DNA of 64,000 nt from Prauserella marina. Lineage in GTDB: Bacteria > Actinomycetota > Actinomycetes > Mycobacteriales > Pseudonocardiaceae. Below are positions 3 through 45,932 of the stretch, piece by piece. The position numbers and the translations under genes were made by a program. The stretch is taken from contig NZ_CP016353.1 in the NCBI RefSeq assembly GCF_002240355.1, positions 434,001 to 498,000 on the forward strand, in the 5' to 3' direction. A model generated the notes under the pieces. It had not been told where the DNA came from and did no database searches. It was given only the letters and a program-made list of their open reading frames with translations. The first letter of the stretch is position 1. Each line of letters starts with the position of its first letter.

Positions 3-2549
3 CTGGCCGATCCTGCCTACGTCATCTACACCTCGGGGTCGACTGGGCGGCCGAAGGGGACCGTCGTCTCCCACGACGGCATCGCAAGCCTGCTCGCGAC
101 GGCGATCGACAGGATGGGGTTGCGGCAGGACTCCGTCGTCTCCCAGTTCGCGTCCATCGGATTCGACGTGTTCGTATTCGAGCTCGTCATGGCGCTGTGT
201 CATGGGGGAAAACTTGTTCTGGTACCGGAGTCGGTACGGGGTGCTGGAGTGCCGCTCGTGGACTTCCTTCGCCAGCACGAGGTCACCCATATGATTCTGC
301 CACCTTCCCTGATGGCAGCGCTGCCGCCGGAGTGCGTGCTCCCGGAAGACGCGACCATCCTCGTCGGCACCGAAACGGTTCCGCCCGAACTGGTCGAGAG
401 GTGGGCAGGCAAGGTCAATCTCATCGCCGCGTACGGCCTCACCGAAGCGACCGTCAACTCGACGTTGTGGCCTGCCGAACCCGGCTGGCAGGGACCGATC
501 CCGATAGGTTCTCCCGACCCCAACACGACCTGTTACGTACTCGATGACCGGCTCAGGCCGGTCCCGCCAGGCGTCACCGGTGAGCTGTACGTCGGTGGCA
601 GGGGACTCGCTCTCGGCTATCTCGGCAGGCATGGTCTCACCGCGGGTCGCTTCGTCGCCGATCCGTTCGGTGCGCCGGGTTCGCGGCTCTATCGCACGGG
701 CGACAGGGCGCGCTGGCGAGGGGGAGGCACGCTCGATTTCGCTGGACGCAGCGACAACCAGGTGAAGGTACGCGGTTTCCGCATCGAGCTCGGCGAGATC
801 GAGTCCGCGTTGTCCTCGCATCCGGCCGTCCGGCAAGCCGCGGTCGTCGCGGACCGGAGGAGCGACATCGTGCGCCTCGCCGGTTACGTCGTCGTGGAAT
901 CGGGAGCAGCGCGACCGATCGAGTGGCGCGAGCACCTTCGCCGCGTTCTCCCCGACTACATGATTCCCGGCCTGGTGACCGAAGTGGATGGTCCACTTCC
1001 GTTGACGCCGAACGGAAAACTGGACCGGTCCGCGCTTCCGGAGCCGGATTGGTCCGCGCTTTCCGGCGCGGCCAGACCGGCGACCGAACGACAGCGGGTG
1101 CTGGCGACGGTGTTCACGGACCTGCTCGAACTCGACGATGTCGGCGTGCACGACGACTTCTTCGTGCTGGGTGGGCATTCGATGGCCGCGATGCGATTGC
1201 TCGGCCGGATACGGTCGACGTTCGGTGTCAATCTAGCCGTCAGGGACGTTTTCGAGTCTCCGACCGTCGCCGGATTGTCGGAACTGCTGCGTGGCTCGAC
1301 CGGTTACCGTCCGGCTCCCCGGAGAACCGAACGACCGGACCGGCTGCCATTGGCTCCGGTTCAACGCTGGCTGTGGGAACTCGGTGGGGTGCAACCACGG
1401 TTCGACCACGCGCTGACGTTGCGGTCCACAGCGGGGTTCGACGTCGAGGCGATGTCTCTGGCATGGCGGGATGTCGCGGAGCGCCACGAGTCGTTGCGGA
1501 CGGTCTTTGTGGACGGTACGAAAGTGACGCAGGAAGTCGGCGAGGTCGTGCCGCTTGTCGTGGAATCCGTCGTGCCCGCCGCGGTCGACGGGCGAGTTTC
1601 CTCGCTGGCGACGGCGCCCGCGGAGCAGCCGTTGGTCGCTCACCTGCTGGTGTCGGACCGGGAACATGTGCTGGTGCTCGCGATGCGGTACCTGGTCTGT
1701 GACGAATGGTCTGTCGTACCGTTGTTCAGAGATCTGGGCGCCGCGTACTCGGCTCGACTGTCGGGGTCGGCGCCGAATTGGCAGGCGCTTCCACTGTCCT
1801 ATTCAGACTATGCGTGCTGGTCGGAGGAGCTGGCCAACGAAGTGGGAGAGCGGCAACTGGAGTACTGGAAGGACGCCTTGCGAGGTGTGTCGACGGTGCG
1901 GTTGCCGGAAAGCGGGAGCACGGCCGAGCCGGGCGCGGTGTCGTTCGGGTTGGCGGTTGAGCAGAACACCCGGCTCGTCACTTTCGCCAACCGGCACGGT
2001 GTCAGTCAGTTCATGGTGTTGCAGGCCGCGTTGGCGACGGTCCTCTCCGAGGCGGGTGGTGGTACCGACATTCCGATCGGTGCTGTCGTTGCCGGACGTA
2101 CCGAGGAGGTGTTCGCGGATCTGGTCGGCGCCTTCGCCAACACCGTTGTGCTGCGTACCGATCTTTCCGGTCGGCCGTCGTTCGGTGAGCTGTCGCGCAG
2201 GGTGCGGGCGGTGAACCTTGCGGCGCTGGACAATCAGGACGTCTCGTTCGCGGACGTCTGCGAGGCGGTCGGCTGGCGGCCGAACGTGTTGATGGTGCAG
2301 CACGAACAGGCCGACCTCACGGAGCTCGAAGGCGGACACGGGTCGCTTGTCGCGATACCCACGGGAGTTGCCAACGCGGACCTGACGTTCAGCTTCCACC
2401 TTCCGCGTGGTCGTGGTGACCTGCATTGTCAGCTCGCGTACGCGGGCGGAGTGCTCGGTCGGGAGGGGGCGGAGCGGGTCGCGGGTGACCTGGTGGAGTT
2501 GCTGACCGAGGTGACGGCTGTCGATGCGACCGGTGACCGAAGTGGGTGA
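3..2549 (+). CDS. Nonribosomal peptide synthetase, C-terminal part (A-PCP-terminal C), 5' partial
   Basis: This is the last part of an NRPS, probably for a hydroxamate-type peptide siderophore given its neighbours; the frame is open to the window edge, so the gene starts outside. Counting residues from base 3, the adenylation domain enters at core motif A3 (YTSGSTGRPKG, residues 9-19) and runs to about 345, with AYGLTEAT and YRTGD visible. A peptidyl carrier domain follows with LGGHS (Ser393 for phosphopantetheine), then a condensation domain from about 438 to the end. Specificity positions read by eye against GrsA are D-V-F-I-L-G-A-V-N; I cannot name the amino acid. The C domain has RHESLRTVF, YSDYACW and GAFANT, but the catalytic HHxxxDG position reads RYLVCDE. 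No thioesterase follows. The next gene is mbtH. Confidence 0.93.
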   Translation: MADPAYVIYTSGSTGRPKGTVVSHDGIASLLATAIDRMGLRQDSVVSQFASIGFDVFVFELVMALCHGGKLVLVPESVRGAGVPLVDFLRQHEVTHMILPPSLMAALPPECVLPEDATILVGTETVPPELVERWAGKVNLIAAYGLTEATVNSTLWPAEPGWQGPIPIGSPDPNTTCYVLDDRLRPVPPGVTGELYVGGRGLALGYLGRHGLTAGRFVADPFGAPGSRLYRTGDRARWRGGGTLDFAGRSDNQVKVRGFRIELGEIESALSSHPAVRQAAVVADRRSDIVRLAGYVVVESGAARPIEWREHLRRVLPDYMIPGLVTEVDGPLPLTPNGKLDRSALPEPDWSALSGAARPATERQRVLATVFTDLLELDDVGVHDDFFVLGGHSMAAMRLLGRIRSTFGVNLAVRDVFESPTVAGLSELLRGSTGYRPAPRRTERPDRLPLAPVQRWLWELGGVQPRFDHALTLRSTAGFDVEAMSLAWRDVAERHESLRTVFVDGTKVTQEVGEVVPLVVESVVPAAVDGRVSSLATAPAEQPLVAHLLVSDREHVLVLAMRYLVCDEWSVVPLFRDLGAAYSARLSGSAPNWQALPLSYSDYACWSEELANEVGERQLEYWKDALRGVSTVRLPESGSTAEPGAVSFGLAVEQNTRLVTFANRHGVSQFMVLQAALATVLSEAGGGTDIPIGAVVAGRTEEVFADLVGAFANTVVLRTDLSGRPSFGELSRRVRAVNLAALDNQDVSFADVCEAVGWRPNVLMVQHEQADLTELEGGHGSLVAIPTGVANADLTFSFHLPRGRGDLHCQLAYAGGVLGREGAERVAGDLVELLTEVTAVDATGDRSG

Positions 2550-2761
2550 GGCTCGTGGTGTGGCGTGCTGTGTTCGCGGTGTGGCCCGTGGTGGTGTGCG
2601 GTGTGGCTAGCGCTGGCATGCGATGCGCGTGACCGCCTGCGGTCGGTGCGGGTGCGGGTGCGGCGTGTGGCGGGGGTGCGGGAGGACGTGCGGCTTGCGG
2701 CCCGTGGTGGGTGGCGCGTGACGTGTGGCGGATGAAGTGATGAAGGAGATCAGGAGGAACC

Positions 2762-2956
2762 GTGACGAACCCGTTCGATGACAACGATGGCCGGTTTTAT
2801 GTGCTCGTGAACGACGAGGAGCAGCATTCGCTGTGGCCGACGTTCGCGGCGGTGCCGGATGGCTGGCGAATCGTGTTCGGTGAGGAAAGCAGGGAAGCCT
2901 GCCTCGCCTATGTGGAGGAGAACTGGACGGATCTGAGGCCGGCCAGCATCCGCTGA
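2762..2956 (+). CDS. mbtH: MbtH-like protein
   Basis: Small (64 aa) activator/chaperone that binds NRPS adenylation domains. It begins [20 protein letters not shown] and carries the family tryptophans in HSLWPTF, PDGW and ENWTDLRP, so length and motifs are typical. The GTG start is chosen because AGGAGG lies 5 bases upstream. It follows the NRPS by 212 bp of G/T-rich, low-complexity sequence (2550-2761) in which I see no gene, so it may be cotranscribed with the NRPS. Its partner is almost certainly that synthetase. Confidence 0.95.
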
Positions 2957-2986
2957 CTCGCCCGTCGACTCGCGTGCGATGCCCGC

Positions 2987-3238
2987 GAGTCCCGCACCCA
3001 GCACCGCGAGTCCCGCACTCGGGAGCGCGAGATGCGCGCTCGGGACGCCGAGATCTGCACCCAGGATGCCGAGGTGCGCGTTGGGGACGCCGAGATCTGC
3101 ACCCAGGTCGCCGAGGTCTGTGTCCAGGATCGTGAGATGCGCGTCCACCGCGTGCGAGCTGCGCTCAGGAGCGTGAGTTCTGCGTTCGGGGTGATCGGAT
3201 CTGTGTTCGGGACGGCGAGATCTGCTTTCGTGTGTGCG
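2987..3238 (+). repeat. 21-bp tandem repeat array, left arm
   Basis: The 1047-bp gap between mbtH and the convergent exporter gene (2957-4003) holds no credible gene. Its left part is about 12 units of an imperfect 21-bp tandem repeat, each beginning GAG, with unit starts at 2987, 3008, 3029, 3050, 3071, 3092, 3113 and 3134, then slightly irregular to 3217. A typical unit is GAGATCTGCACCCAGGATGC plus C. Bases 1-10 of the unit are best conserved and the rest vary. Bases 3239-3347 are a non-repeated centre. The array reads in the opposite direction to the one at 3348-3698. Confidence 0.85.
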
Positions 3239-3347
3239 TGTGTGTTTCGCATCGGCAGATGATCTGTCGGATGCAGACCTGCTTACCGGGGTGGGGTACG
3301 CGGTGACAGGTTCAGCTCCGGCTGCCACCGCCTTCGCGATCCTGGAT

Positions 3348-3698
3348 GCGGATTTCGCTCACCTGGATGCGGACCTCGCGCGGCTGACCGCGCACTTCGC
3401 GCGCCTGAGCGCGGATATCGTCCAGCCGAGCGCACTCCTCGCCGTCCCGGGTGCGGATCTCGGCGCCCTGGGAGGGGGACTCGCCATCCCGGGTGCAGGT
3501 CTCGGCGTCCCCGGTGCGGATCTCGATGCCACCAACGCAGGTCTCGACGCTGTGGGCGCAGGTCTCACCGTCTTGAGCGCGGATCTCGGGCTCCTGAGTG
3601 CGGATCTCGACGACGTGGGTGCGGATCTCGCTGTCCTCGGCGCGGATCTCGGCGTCCCGGGTGCGGATCTCGGCGCCCTGGGAGGGGGACTCGCGGGT
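3348..3698 (-). repeat. 21-bp tandem repeat array, right arm (inverted)
   Basis: This is a run of 17 consecutive 21-bp units of the same repeat in inverted orientation: the complement reads GAGATCCGCACCCGGGACGC plus C. The period is exactly 21 throughout, so any forward frame translates into heptads such as ADLGVPG/ADLGALG. With the left arm this makes a head-to-head pair around a centre of about 110 bp, able in principle to form a very long imperfect hairpin between the two convergent transcription units. Two units inside (around 3466 and 3676) are nearly identical G-rich variants, suggesting internal duplication. Confidence 0.85.
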
Positions 3699-3730
3699 AC
3701 GGCGGACCACGGCCTGCCGCGGCTCCCTGG

Positions 3731-3782
3731 CCCCGCTACCCGCCTGCGGGCTGCCACCCCGCTACCCGCCCGCGGGCTGCCA
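3731..3782. repeat. 26-bp tandem duplication
   Basis: Two adjacent 26-bp copies differ at a single base (T or C at position 14). Each starts CCCCGCTACCCGCC or a one-base variant and ends GGGCTGCCA. The element lies just outside the inverted 21-bp array. A comparable GC-rich duplication containing GGGGTAGC sits beside the second 21-bp array at 45.7 kb. Confidence 0.8.
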
Positions 3783-3894
3783 CCCCGCGGGCGGGACGTG
3801 CCCCCGCCTCGGCCCTGCGGACCCCGGCCGGGGGGCGACCCCGGCCCTGGGGCCCCCGCCTTCCGGGCGGACCCCCGCCTTCCGGGCGCACAGC

Positions 3895-3990
<96 letters not shown>

Positions 3991-4003
3991 GGCGCGCGGC
4001 AGG

Positions 4004-5755
4004 TCAGGGGGTCCGGTTACCCGACCAGGCTTTCCACAGGGCGGCATACCGGCCACCCTCGGCAAGCAGTTGATCGTGCGTACCGGCCTCGACCACCCTG
4101 CCCGCATCGAGCACGACGACCCGGTCGGCCGCGGCCGCCTGGGTGAGGCGGTGCGCGACCACCAACCCGGTACGCCCGGCAAGCGCCTTTCCGGCTGCCT
4201 TTTCCAGTTCCTTCGCGCCCGTGCTCCCCGCCTCCGCCGTCGCCTCGTCGAGGATGGCGACAGGGGGATCGGCCAGCACCAGCCGCACGAGGGCGAGCTG
4301 CTGTGCCTGCGTCACCGTCAACCGATGCCCACCTTCTCCCACCACAGTGGACAACCCGTCAGGAAGACTGTCCACCCAGGACAGCGCACCGAGCTGGTCG
4401 AGCGCCGCTCGCAGTTCCGCGTCCGTCGCGCTGGGTTTCGCGAGCCGGAGGTCCTCACCGAGTTCGCCGGCGAAGACGTGTACCTCCTGACTGATCAGCG
4501 CGACCGTCTCGCGCGTCGCGGCCGGGCCCAGTTCCGGCAAGCCGACCCCGCCCACCGAGACCGAGCCCGAACTCGGCCGGTGGATTCCCGCGATGAGTTT
4601 GGCGAGCGTCGTCTTGCCTGCTCCGCTCGCGCCGACGAGCGCGATCCGTTCTCCCGCGTTGATGTCGAGGTCGACGTCTGCGAGTACGTCGTGTCCTCGC
4701 ACGTAGGCGTGCCCGATCGCGGTGGCTTTGACCGACGCGTCGGCGGGCGAGCCGGGTTGCTGAGGTTCCTCCTCCGCCGGTAGGTCAGCAACCCCGACGA
4801 GCCGGGACAGGCTCGCCGCTGCCGACTGGGCGTCGTCGACGAGCGCCAGCGCCGCGTTGATCGGATTGAACAGGCTGTGGAAGTACAGGGCGGCCGCGGT
4901 CGCCGTGCCGATCGTGGCGGTCTGGTTGCCGACGAGCAGGAAACCGGTGACGAGCACGGCGGAGAGCCCGATGAACTCGGCGAGGTTGAGGCGGGAGAAG
5001 AATCGCGTCACCAACCTCGTCGCGCGCATGGTGATGTCGACGACGTCCTGCGACCGGCCCCGCACCCTTTCGACGTGGTCGTCGCCGAGCCGGAACGCCC
5101 GCACGGTACGCGAACCGCCGACCGTGTCGAGCAGTTGTTGTTGCTGCGCACCGTCTTTGACGCGCTGGCTCGCGTAGAGCGGCGTCGCCCTCCGCACGTA
5201 CCAGCGCACCGTGTAGAGCTGGATGGGGGTCGCGAGCAACGCGGCGAGCAGGAATCGCCAGTCGAGCACGGCGAGCCCGACGAAGGTCAGCACGATCGTC
5301 AGCACCGATCTGCCCAGTTCGGGGAGTGCGTCGCGCACCGACTTGGCGATCACGGCGACGTCGTTGGTGACGCGGGAGGTGAGATCGCCCGACCCGGCCA
5401 GTTCGACGCGTTCGAGCGGGAGCCCGAGTGCCTTCTCGATGAACCGTTCGCGAAGCCCGGCGAGCATTTCCTCGCCGAGCCGGGAGACGAGCGCGAGACC
5501 CACCGCGTTGGCGGCTCCGCGCACGAGCGCGACCACGACGAGCGCGACGATGGGCAGTGTGAAGGCCGTGCTGCCGTCGGCGACGAGATCGACGATGTGC
5601 CCGAGCAGCGGCGCGGTGAGCAGGCCGACGGCGGTCGCCGCGACGAGTGTCGTGAAGGCCGAGAAAGCCAGCAGTCGTCGTGGTCGCAGCAGTTCGCCGA
5701 CCGCGGCGGCCGTTCTGGCTCCGCCCGCCGTTGGCAGGAGTTCGCGTTCGGTCAT
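4004..5755 (-). CDS. ABC exporter subunit with intact Walker motifs (membrane + ATPase)
   Basis: A 583-aa half-transporter: an N-terminal transmembrane domain (about residues 25-310) fused to an ATPase domain. Walker A is GASGAGKTT, Walker B is VAILDEAT and the switch histidine is in VVAHRLT, all intact. The signature LSGGQ position is degenerate (VTQAQQ). It starts with ATG overlapping the stop of the upstream subunit (ATGA), so the two are translationally coupled and should form a heterodimer. The upstream partner has the opposite defects. Placement next to NRPS and FecCD genes suggests siderophore secretion, or uptake as in mycobacterial IrtAB; the direction of transport cannot be decided from sequence. 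Its 3' end faces the repeat region. Confidence 0.9.
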   Translation of the reverse strand: MTERELLPTAGGARTAAAVGELLRPRRLLAFSAFTTLVAATAVGLLTAPLLGHIVDLVADGSTAFTLPIVALVVVALVRGAANAVGLALVSRLGEEMLAGLRERFIEKALGLPLERVELAGSGDLTSRVTNDVAVIAKSVRDALPELGRSVLTIVLTFVGLAVLDWRFLLAALLATPIQLYTVRWYVRRATPLYASQRVKDGAQQQQLLDTVGGSRTVRAFRLGDDHVERVRGRSQDVVDITMRATRLVTRFFSRLNLAEFIGLSAVLVTGFLLVGNQTATIGTATAAALYFHSLFNPINAALALVDDAQSAAASLSRLVGVADLPAEEEPQQPGSPADASVKATAIGHAYVRGHDVLADVDLDINAGERIALVGASGAGKTTLAKLIAGIHRPSSGSVSVGGVGLPELGPAATRETVALISQEVHVFAGELGEDLRLAKPSATDAELRAALDQLGALSWVDSLPDGLSTVVGEGGHRLTVTQAQQLALVRLVLADPPVAILDEATAEAGSTGAKELEKAAGKALAGRTGLVVAHRLTQAAAADRVVVLDAGRVVEAGTHDQLLAEGGRYAALWKAWSGNRTP

Positions 5756-44115: not shown

Positions 44116-45648
44116 ATGACCCGCGCACGCAAGACCACGGGGCGCGTCGCCTTCGTGGGCTCGGGCCCCGGCGACGCCGGACTGCTGACGGTTCGCGCTC
44201 AGGAGCTACTGGCCAAAGCCGAACTGGTGGTGACAGATCCCGACGTACCGGCATCCGTGCTGGCATTGACCGATTCCGAAGCCGAGGTCCGTCCCGCCGT
44301 CGGTGAGCCAGGCGATGTCGCGAAAGACCTGACCGCGGAGGCGAAGGCAGGCAGGCTCGTACTGCGGCTCGTCGGTGGTGACCCGCTGACCCAGCCCGCC
44401 GTCGTCGCCGAGGTACAGGCCGTTTCCCGCACCAGCGCCGTCTTCGACGTCGTGCCAGGTGTCTCGCCAGGCGTCGCGGTTCCCGCGTACGCGGGCGTCG
44501 CGCTCGGCGGCACGCACTGCGAGGTCGACGTTCGCGGCGAGGTCGACTGGGCAGGCGTCGCCGGAGCGCAGGGCACGATCGTGCTGCACGCGACGTCGAG
44601 TCACCTCGCAGAGGCTGCCTCGGCGCTGGTGGAGAACGGCCTTTCGCCGCAGACCGCCGTCGCGGTGACCTCCAACGGCACGATCAACACCCAGCGCACC
44701 GTCGACTCGACGCTCGCTTCGCTCAGCGCGGACGCGGGTGAGCTCGTCGGCCCGCTCGTGGTGAGCATCGGTGGTGCCGTCGGCAACAGGTCGAAGCTGT
44801 CCTGGTGGGAGTCGAGGGCGCTCTACGGCTGGAAGGTGCTCGTTCCGCGCACCAAGGAGCAGGCCGGTGACATGGCCGACCGGCTCCGCAGCCACGGCGC
44901 CACGTCGCACGAGGTGCCGACGATCTCGGTCGAGCCGCCCCGCAGCCCCGCTCAGATGGAGCGCGCGGTCAAGGGCCTCGTCGACGGTCGCTACCAGTGG
45001 ATCGTGTTCACCTCGACCAATGCCGTTCGCGCGGTATGGGAGAAGTTCGCCGAGTTCGGTCTCGACGCCAGGGCGTTCTCCGGTGTGAAGATCGCCTGTG
45101 TCGGCGAGGCGACCGCCGAGAAGGTGCGCTCGTTCGGCATCCTTCCCGAGTTGGTTCCCTCCGGTGACCAGTCGAGCGACGGCCTGCTCGCCGAGTTCCC
45201 CCCTTACGACGACGTGCTCGACCCCGTCGACAGGGTGCTGCTGCCGAGGGCGGACATCGCGACCGAGACGTTGTCGGCCGGTCTTCGCGACCGCGGCTGG
45301 GAGATCGACGACGTCACGGCCTACCGGACCGTCAGGGCCGCGCCGCCGCCGGCCGACACCCGCGAGATGATCAAGACCGGCGGGTTCGACGCGGTGTGCT
45401 TCACCTCGTCCTCGACCGTGCGGAACCTGGTCGGCATCGCGGGCAAGCCGCACGCGCGCACGCTGGTGGCCTGCATCGGTCCGAAGACGGCCGAGACCGC
45501 GACCGAGTTCGGTCTCAGGGTCGACGTGCAGCCGGACAAGCCGAACGTACTGACGCTGGTGGACGCGCTGGCCGAGCACGCGGCGAAGCTGCGTGCCGAG
45601 GGCGCGCTCCCGCCGCCCCGCAAGGCGAAGCGCGCTCGGCGCTCCTGA
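44116..45648 (+). CDS. hemD: Uroporphyrinogen-III methyltransferase-like/synthase fusion (CobA-HemD)
   Basis: A 510-aa two-domain protein. Residues 1-230 form a CobA-type tetrapyrrole methyltransferase fold starting VAFVGSGPGDAGLLTVRAQE; residues 240-490 form uroporphyrinogen-III synthase (LVPRTKEQAGDMADRLRSHG, VFTSTNAVRAVWEKF, CFTSSSTVRNLV). The synthase half closes the tetrapyrrole ring. The methyltransferase half lacks the usual FGRGGEE motif (LRLVGGDPLTQPAVVAE stands there), so methylation activity is doubtful. GAGGAG precedes the ATG. It is the last gene of rex-hemACD and is followed by a perfect terminator. Confidence 0.92.
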   Translation: MTRARKTTGRVAFVGSGPGDAGLLTVRAQELLAKAELVVTDPDVPASVLALTDSEAEVRPAVGEPGDVAKDLTAEAKAGRLVLRLVGGDPLTQPAVVAEVQAVSRTSAVFDVVPGVSPGVAVPAYAGVALGGTHCEVDVRGEVDWAGVAGAQGTIVLHATSSHLAEAASALVENGLSPQTAVAVTSNGTINTQRTVDSTLASLSADAGELVGPLVVSIGGAVGNRSKLSWWESRALYGWKVLVPRTKEQAGDMADRLRSHGATSHEVPTISVEPPRSPAQMERAVKGLVDGRYQWIVFTSTNAVRAVWEKFAEFGLDARAFSGVKIACVGEATAEKVRSFGILPELVPSGDQSSDGLLAEFPPYDDVLDPVDRVLLPRADIATETLSAGLRDRGWEIDDVTAYRTVRAAPPPADTREMIKTGGFDAVCFTSSSTVRNLVGIAGKPHARTLVACIGPKTAETATEFGLRVDVQPDKPNVLTLVDALAEHAAKLRAEGALPPPRKAKRARRS

Positions 45649-45726: not shown

Positions 45727-45770
45727 GCGTGCGGGGCGGCGGGATCCCGCGTGCGGGGCGGCGGGGTAGC
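45727..45770. repeat. 22-bp tandem duplication beside the second 21-bp array
   Basis: Two adjacent 22-bp copies share GCGTGCGGGGCGGCGGG and differ in the last five bases (ATCCC or GTAGC). The GGGGTAGC end recalls the complement of the 26-bp duplication at 3731-3782, so the same kind of GC element flanks both 21-bp arrays. Confidence 0.7.
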
Positions 45771-45786
45771 GCGTGCGGTGCCGTGC

Positions 45787-45932
45787 GAGTCCCGCACCGC
45801 CCGCGCGAGTCCCCCGCTCAGGCCGTCGAGATCCGCACTCAGGCGCGCGAGTTCTGCACTCAGGTCGCCGAGATCCGCACCCAGACCCGCGAGATCCGCA
45901 CTCAGCCCGCCGAGTTCCGCCCGCGCGAGGGC
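45787..45932 (+). repeat. Second 21-bp tandem repeat array
   Basis: Seven units start with GAG at 45787, 45807, 45828, 45849, 45870, 45891 and 45912: one 20-bp step, then exact 21-bp steps. A typical unit is GAGATCCGCACTCAGGCGCG plus C. It is plainly the same family as the arrays at 2987-3698. This locus has one orientation only. As at the first locus, it lies between convergent genes (hemD and the DapE-type gene). The 288-bp gap 45649-45936 holds no gene. Confidence 0.85.

Follow-up and report, generated by a model that had tools for sequence, protein, structure and literature searches.

What could two opposed arrays of a 21-bp repeat, lying between the ends of two convergent genes of Prauserella marina, be for? 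The stretch of DNA analyzed comprises 64,000 nt (the window), and coordinates refer to it unless marked as chromosomal; the genome is designated G000. Array 1 (2985-3235, plus strand) starts 28 nt past the stop of an MbtH-like gene (2762-2956, plus strand, 64 aa), has the same sense as that gene, and comprises 12 slots, 11 of which were scored as units by our unit profile; units 1 and 2 are of the GCGAGTCCC type, and several later ones read CGAGAT. Beyond a center of 102 bp without any unit (3236-3337), array 2 (3338-3694, minus strand) faces array 1 with 17 units, likewise identified by unit profile, in the sense of an ABC exporter gene (4004-5755, minus strand, 583 aa; both genes were named by reading). 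Thus, the two arrays lie tail to tail in the gap 2956-4004, between two convergent stops, and TRF reported periods of 21, 42, and 63 in the array region. The exporter stop is 309 nt from array 2, and the intervening stretch (3695-4003), which is outside the 21-bp family, holds other low-complexity repeats—namely, a 26-bp tandem (3731-3788) and a GCC-rich run (3893-3969), both unlike the 21-bp unit. A further array of the family (45785-45930, plus strand, 7 units by unit profile) begins 136 nt past a gene ending at 45648, which reads as uroporphyrinogen methyltransferase-like; a 22-bp repeat (45727-45778) lies ahead of this array. An earlier note on this DNA had claimed two opposed arrays of 12 and 17 units, and the unit profile bears out both the arrays and the counts, with coordinates correct to a few bases (array 2 begins 10 bp earlier, at 3338). 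The interpretation offered there was partly supported: convergent placement and phased spacing found support, and a long hairpin and a terminator role did not.

The repeat occurs throughout the genome. Allowing one mismatch at most, CCGAGATCYGCRYYC gave 624 matches in P. marina versus 5 for the pattern read backwards, and the 901-bp region gave 138 matches, counting itself and the cross-matches of its arms. We read a sample of 2.46 Mb, comprising 864 kb of P. marina and 180, 200, 420, 400, and 400 kb of genomes G001, G002, G003, G046, and G078, respectively, in which genes were called with a simple purpose-made caller and arrays were detected with a separate unit profile per genome. This sample held 105 arrays (39 in P. 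marina and 9, 13, 23, 11, and 10 in the other five, in the same order), and none appeared when each of the six sequences was reversed and scanned with the same profile. As the reversed 864 kb of P. marina yielded 0 arrays versus 39 real ones, the arrays are not due to chance; a cruder motif-only detector found 62 arrays in the initially read blocks versus 2 in the reversed blocks. Extrapolation from 39 arrays in 864 kb suggests that P. marina perhaps carries ~300 in total. Four of the 105 arrays fell within a called gene. The earlier note had proposed searching the unit consensus in this and related genomes and counting copies, orientation, and position at gene ends, and had regarded a repeat found only here, or scattered inside genes without positional bias, as a sign of chance expansion; neither outcome occurred, as the repeat is genome-wide, rare in called genes, and biased to convergent gaps.

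This bias was measured over all gaps of the six genomes that spanned at least 40 bp or contained an array. Among convergent gaps, 36 of 168 contained arrays, compared with 31 of 641 for tandem and 4 of 351 for divergent ones (convergent versus divergent, p = 4e-15), so that location between convergent gene ends, as remarked for the mbtH locus, is a strong preference of the whole repeat family. Orientation follows a rule as well: among neighboring arrays at most 800 bp apart, 28 pairs faced each other, none stood back to back, and 6 ran in the same direction, which means that all 28 opposed pairs face. Relative to transcription, arrays in tandem gaps showed no clear bias (23 sense and 15 antisense to the genes). 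Distances could be assigned for 100 of the 105 arrays (54 in convergent, 38 in tandem, and 8 in divergent gaps). In convergent gaps, arrays started a median of 12 nt past their own stop and ended a median of 133.5 nt from the other gene, with 40 of 54 nearer their own stop. Overall, a same-strand stop preceded 77 of the 100 arrays, and the first unit faced a gene start in the remaining 23, at a median distance of 127 nt (14 of the 23 at 59-130 nt). Two such start-facing arrays recur in G046 and G078 at distances of 60/16 versus 60/12 and 127/33 versus 127/36, beside neighbors of 798 and 1,224 nt, and these near-equal distances and neighbor lengths lead us to think that start-facing arrays are not gene-calling errors. 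With 23 of 100 arrays facing a gene start, a pure 3'-terminator role is too narrow. By eye, a possible intrinsic terminator lies ahead of the array at two sites; at chromosome 600715-600884, a terminator-like hairpin and then an array follow a gene that reads as encoding ribosomal protein L33.

Within arrays, the letters vary much more freely than the period. Spacing between neighboring units was exactly 21 in 402 of 430 pairs, and 12 of 14 other spacings in the range of 16-27 were 19, 20, 22, or 23; in 337 pairs of adjacent inner units, 5.5 of 21 positions differed per pair. In G046 and G078, the spacer between stop and array differed in length at 5 of 7 common sites, and unit spacing departed from 21 in 1 of 59 cases (p = 1e-5, for comparisons that are not of the same kind but agree in direction). 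The exact 21-bp period had been taken to suit a phased protein array, and a spacing stricter than the sequence fits that proposal.

The pooled unit is GCGAGNNNNNCRYYC, which by reading has at most a 3-bp GAG/CTC dyad and carries no GTAG/CGTC tag. Positions 1-4, 10, 14, and 17 are conserved, and the blocks at 1-4 and 10-14 are about one helical turn apart, the whole unit spanning two turns; the largest harmonic of unit conservation is 10.5 bp, which is weak (p = 0.025 if preselected, 0.27 over all harmonics). First units read GCGAGTCCCCCGCYC in five of the six genomes, with G003 differing. The core of inner units (positions 5-9) is ATCCG in P. marina, TCGTG in G003, and mostly TCCCC in G001, G002, and G078. 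About 45% of the inner units of P. marina carry one GGG at positions 15-17, the tracts being 21 bp apart. In every one of the six genomes, last units contained more T than first units, and T content did not rise steadily with rank; the T-rich last units perhaps reflect strand-specific deamination or a functional order.

We then compared the places of arrays between genomes, taking reciprocal best hits between sampled blocks as orthologs. For G046 and G078 (336 orthologs), 7 genes carried an array in both genomes and none in one alone, and for G001 and G002 (84 orthologs) the corresponding counts were 5 in both and 2 on each side alone. P. marina shared 2 array places with G078 (210 orthologs; 1 and 2 one-sided), 2 with G046 (189 orthologs; 0 and 2 one-sided), and 2 with G003 (49 orthologs; 1 and 1 one-sided). 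G001 and G003 shared 1 among 6 orthologs, and G002 and G003 none among 18, with 2 arrays in G003 alone; P. marina against G001 (2 orthologs) and G002 (7 orthologs) gave one array each, in P. marina alone. The remaining genome pairs had 0-4 orthologs and no arrays, and an initial block comparison gave 12 orthologs with no array on either side. Species of the same genus therefore differ at some sites (G001 and G002, G002 and G003), and unit number varies between orthologous arrays. The gene ending at chromosome 801358 is followed by a CGAG-type array in 7 of 26 genomes (G000 to G003, G046, G078, and G022), and the junction TGACCC|GCGA at its end is common to G000, G046, and G078; in orthologs of this gene in genus g26 (L322 near 1368 and L325 near 1341), lag-24 and lag-19 repeats occupy the place of the Prauserella array and may be another element in an equivalent position. 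At chromosomal site 3304382 (M20 peptidase), an array is present in P. marina and there is none among the relatives' rows listed.

The amidohydrolase gene at chromosome 831060-832304 had an ortholog in all 24 genomes searched, and we compared its end in 16 genomes (P. marina, G001, G046, G078, and 12 more) by a method free of any motif. Among lags 12-40, lag 21 scored best in 14 of the 16, and none of 300 shuffles did as well; the exceptions were G022 (best lag 19, with two units 21 bp apart by eye) and G010 (none). Spellings at this one gene end range from GCGAGTCCCCCGCTC and CCGAGTTCCACACTC to CGTGTTTGCCGCTC in G197 and GTGTCCGCGCYC in G012. Just after the array, behind the amidohydrolase stop (chromosome 832304-832704), lie one or two perfect TTATCCACA words, which are DnaA-box-like; such words occur 68-211 nt past the stop in 15 of the 16 genomes, as a pair 19 bp apart in six.

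These spellings are dialects of whole genomes. The exact core motif CGAGATCCGCRYYC matched 387 times in P. marina and at most 18 times in any of the other 296 genomes of the family, and the first-unit motif matched 188, 191, 173, and 14 times in P. marina, G001, G002, and G003, respectively. The G197 spelling, taken from the amidohydrolase end and searched with two mismatches, matched in 19 of 31 genomes (G186, 500; G269, 428; G197, 370; G012, 123; G092, 102; G256, 64; G145, 43; G129, 3), with 0 matches in G000, G001, G046, and G213, among others, and controls matched once in G022 and in none of the other 30 genomes. Thus, the spelling of one place predicted genome-wide dialects. G129, which belongs to the same genus as G197, had 330 matches of the CGAG-type pair pattern, versus 31, in a stricter form, in G197, so the dominant dialect switches within one genus. 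The CGAG-type pair pattern matched in 22 of 297 family genomes, a lower bound on the range, as CGTG... dialects exist, CGAG-type patterns undercount, and zeros are not evidence of absence; in the order-wide set of 397 genomes, none of the 318 from other families had more than 2 CGAG-type pair matches, about the control level, a result that covers the CGAG-type spelling only.

How uniform a dialect is differs along the unit. With the six genomes pooled, core identity (positions 5-9) was 0.70 within an array, 0.74 between arrays of a genome, and 0.49 between genomes, and tail identity was 0.55, 0.505, and 0.46, respectively. In G078, tails were 0.78 identical within versus 0.55 between arrays, and cores 0.73 versus 0.72; in G003, the values were 0.63 versus 0.54 (tails) and 0.78 versus 0.79 (cores). 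P. marina, G001, and G046 showed little or no array identity in tails (none in P. marina). A genome-wide reader that selects the core fits G078 and G003 better than whole-unit copying between arrays, since the latter would level cores and tails alike; G002, in which cores are array-specific too (0.76 within versus 0.60 between arrays), argues against it, as do the tails of P. marina, G001, and G046. The argument that cores are matched to a genome-wide reader is therefore suggestive but not decisive.

Taken as sequence alone, these features lead us to favor, tentatively and as a plausible reading, that the arrays are phased tandem sites for a putative co-evolving DNA-binding protein and form barriers or insulators at the edges of transcription units. 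In each array, the units would serve as successive sequence-specific sites for one candidate protein, which we suppose to bind DNA rather than RNA; with a step of two helical turns, bound copies would be aligned on one face of the DNA, where they could bind cooperatively. The array sits at one border of a transcription unit, mostly a few bases past a stop and in a convergent gap that may contain two facing arrays. Once occupied by protein, it would hinder RNA polymerase as it leaves the unit and so lessen read-through and antisense transcription into the neighbor; start-facing arrays would raise the same barrier against backward transcription. If the specificity of the protein shifts between species and the arrays follow, genome-wide dialects would result. 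Several results count against this reading: the lack of a clear orientation bias in tandem gaps, the 8 arrays in divergent gaps, the overall parity of hairpins at array and other ends (with array ends richer in G003), the two arrays preceded by a possible terminator, the array-specific cores of G002 and the tails of P. marina, the weakness of the 10.5-bp harmonic, and the one-sided sites among species of one genus. Convergent Streptomyces genes often overlap in transcription (cutoRNAs, PMC3765725), and overlap of that kind is read-through that an array barrier could limit. The wider proposal, to which we commit ourselves more cautiously still, is of a family-wide boundary-array system, in which a putative DNA-binding protein and hundreds of 21-bp arrays may co-evolve, dialects changing even within a genus as places and two-turn spacing stay.

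Several of the same observations could also be produced by a selfish or neutral satellite that disperses, grows and shrinks by slippage, is tolerated at gene ends, and drifts in concert by conversion between copies. Varying unit numbers in orthologous arrays, the local homogeneity of tails (in G002 also of cores), uneven abundance among species of one genus, and the roughly one quarter of places that are not gene 3' ends all accord with such an origin. It accounts poorly, however, for a spacing stricter than the sequence, for places kept across genera despite changed letters, and for the cores of G078 and G003, which are common genome-wide without common tails. Nor did we find a vehicle of the RAYT kind: a search for the RAYT (Y1, PF01797) transposase gave no match at E ≤ 0.001 in 15 array-bearing genomes, G010 being the only one of the 20 searched to give matches, so RAYT mobility was rejected. 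We consider the satellite account somewhat unlikely; even a mere satellite would be unusual in keeping place and period as its letters change.

Alternatively, the array might act as RNA: the 3' end of the transcript would present successive 21-nt sites to an RNA-binding protein or to Rho, with effects on termination or mRNA stability. The position of 77 of 100 arrays past a same-strand stop would suit this, as would first units that are C-rich in five of six genomes and last units that are T-richer in all six. We folded arrays with 3 or more units that did not exceed 260 bp (33 in P. marina and 59 in the other five genomes), and single-array RNA had a mean z versus shuffles of +0.25 in P. marina, no better than shuffles, and of −0.31 to −1.39, little better, elsewhere. 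The value of −1.39 belongs to G003, where folding of array RNA is somewhat stronger than that of shuffles and array ends are also richer in hairpins, which favors an RNA role. Both facing arrays of the mbtH locus folded as one RNA gave z = −13, a strong fold expected of facing arrays, which form an inverted repeat. The very long hairpin that had been envisaged for RNA from either side would require read-through across both facing arrays, and many arrays are single. Mutual information within and between P. marina units peaked at positions 18-19 and 19-20, which are neighbors in the tail, with no stem-like pattern, and an Rfam search of 2400-4100 returned no match at E ≤ 1. Structure of the RNA was rejected as a basis, since folding, mutual information, and Rfam revealed little of it and G003 alone leaned that way.

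Comparison of the best local hairpin at 56 array ends and 403 other ends showed no overall difference (p = 0.27). By genome, the fraction of ends with a strong hairpin was, for array versus other ends, 0.21 versus 0.38 in P. marina, 0.33 versus 0.26 in G001, 0 versus 0.49 in G002, 0.53 versus 0.27 in G003, 0.25 versus 0.30 in G046, and 0 versus 0.33 in G078. When scored on the hairpin alone, arrays overall did not display the stable GC-rich hairpin of intrinsic terminators, array ends being richer in hairpins than others in G003. We also rejected the idea that arrays replace hairpins, as array ends and others were alike overall. The terminator role once suggested for the arrays is thus unsupported, hairpins being about equally common at both kinds of ends and 23 of 100 arrays facing a gene start. 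As for Rho, (C−G)/length of the arrays was 0.035 in P. marina, −0.016 in G003, and up to 0.172 in G078, mixed values that show no general excess of C over G as at a rut site. An RNA role, which moreover does not require spacing of exactly 21 and leaves the 23 start-facing arrays aside, appears unlikely.

A topological role, in which arrays at convergent ends draw gyrase or a nucleoid protein that handles positive supercoils, resembles one that has been proposed for BIMEs and agrees with the strong preference for convergent gaps; many single arrays nevertheless lie in tandem gaps, and gyrase would presumably need neither species dialects nor 21-bp phased sites, making this role very unlikely. 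Most improbable is a coding origin, with the 21 bp read as seven codons, either in a repeat protein or in read-through tails. Long open frames do cross arrays (the gene caller called one at 3312-3710), but most arrays begin past a stop codon, the conserved positions ignore codon positions, and spacings of 19, 20, 22, and 23 shift the frame, on which ground coding repeats were rejected.

Were the barrier reading correct, these actinomycetes would mark the edges of transcription units with a readable phased protein array in addition to hairpins and Rho. The dialect switches would then amount to a natural co-evolution experiment, with hundreds of sites pitted against one reader, and that reader should be findable by comparison or pull-down. 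The arrays would also offer ready-made insulators for antibiotic-producing genera.

How do these arrays compare with known systems? Mycobacterial interspersed repetitive units are likewise actinobacterial intergenic tandem repeats, and they are oriented with the upstream gene; they are longer, have coding potential, and are not 21-bp phased, whereas the units here are shorter and phased. In mode of action, we think that the arrays may work like the rDNA terminator arrays of TTF-I and Reb1 (compare PMC11358750), in which sites for known proteins lie just behind transcribed genes and are tandem, orientation-dependent, and species-specific. On whether site orientation follows transcription, the present arrays give a mixed picture, as all 28 opposed pairs face but tandem-gap arrays divide into 23 sense and 15 antisense. 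Those terminator systems are eukaryotic and belong to one locus family, unlike the bacterial arrays described here, of which P. marina has, by extrapolation, perhaps 300.

REP, BIME, and REPIN elements with RAYT are high-copy extragenic repeats found mostly between convergent and unidirectional ORFs, with some families being species-specific (PMC3733652; see also PMC3116915 and PMC2817692), and the 21-bp arrays resemble them in copy number and in the gaps that they occupy. REPs, however, are 20-40-bp palindromes with GTAG/CGTC tags (PMC3733652), as opposed to direct tandem units with a dyad of at most 3 bp, no tag, and weak single-array folding; the 15 array-bearing genomes searched gave no Y1 transposase match. 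Neisseriaceae DUS comprise eight species dialects with a three-letter common core, in inverted pairs tied to terminators; they are short words that also occur within genes and are read by ComP (PMC3630211). One short word in very many copies, spelled in a genome-wide dialect, is what we found as well, although in 21-bp tandem arrays at gene edges.

The 21-bp repeat is not named in the titles and abstract openings returned by our literature search, a weak result given that subscription journals lie mostly outside its coverage. Descriptively, the kind is known, and in the accessible parts of the articles on the systems compared (PMC4692102, PMC3733652, PMC3630211), a fixed 21-bp phase, conserved places, and switching genome-wide dialects are not reported. 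The remark in the earlier note that no named element has this design was nearly right, as much of the layout is present in the heptamer repeats of Xanthomonas (PMC4692102), which are the closest known kind. The Xanthomonas and Nostoc heptamers (GGGAATC and GGGGA(C/T)T) form tandem arrays dispersed over intergenic regions, with a mean distance of 28 nt to the 5' neighboring ORF; they form G-quadruplexes, and long arrays are not kept at the same genes (PMC4692102). With a unit of 21 bp versus 7 nt and G-tracts 21 bp apart, which exceeds the G3-L1-5 pattern of that article, the present arrays do not match the heptamer or G-quadruplex design, and neither genome dialects nor a 21-bp phase are found for heptamers in its accessible part. 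What the two share is the layout: heptamer arrays mostly lie within 0-50 bp of a gene, past the stop when on the coding strand and ahead of the start when on the non-coding one, many of those in Xanthomonas forming facing inverted pairs (PMC4692102), just as the 21-bp arrays are dispersed in tandem behind stops and before starts, and face each other in pairs.
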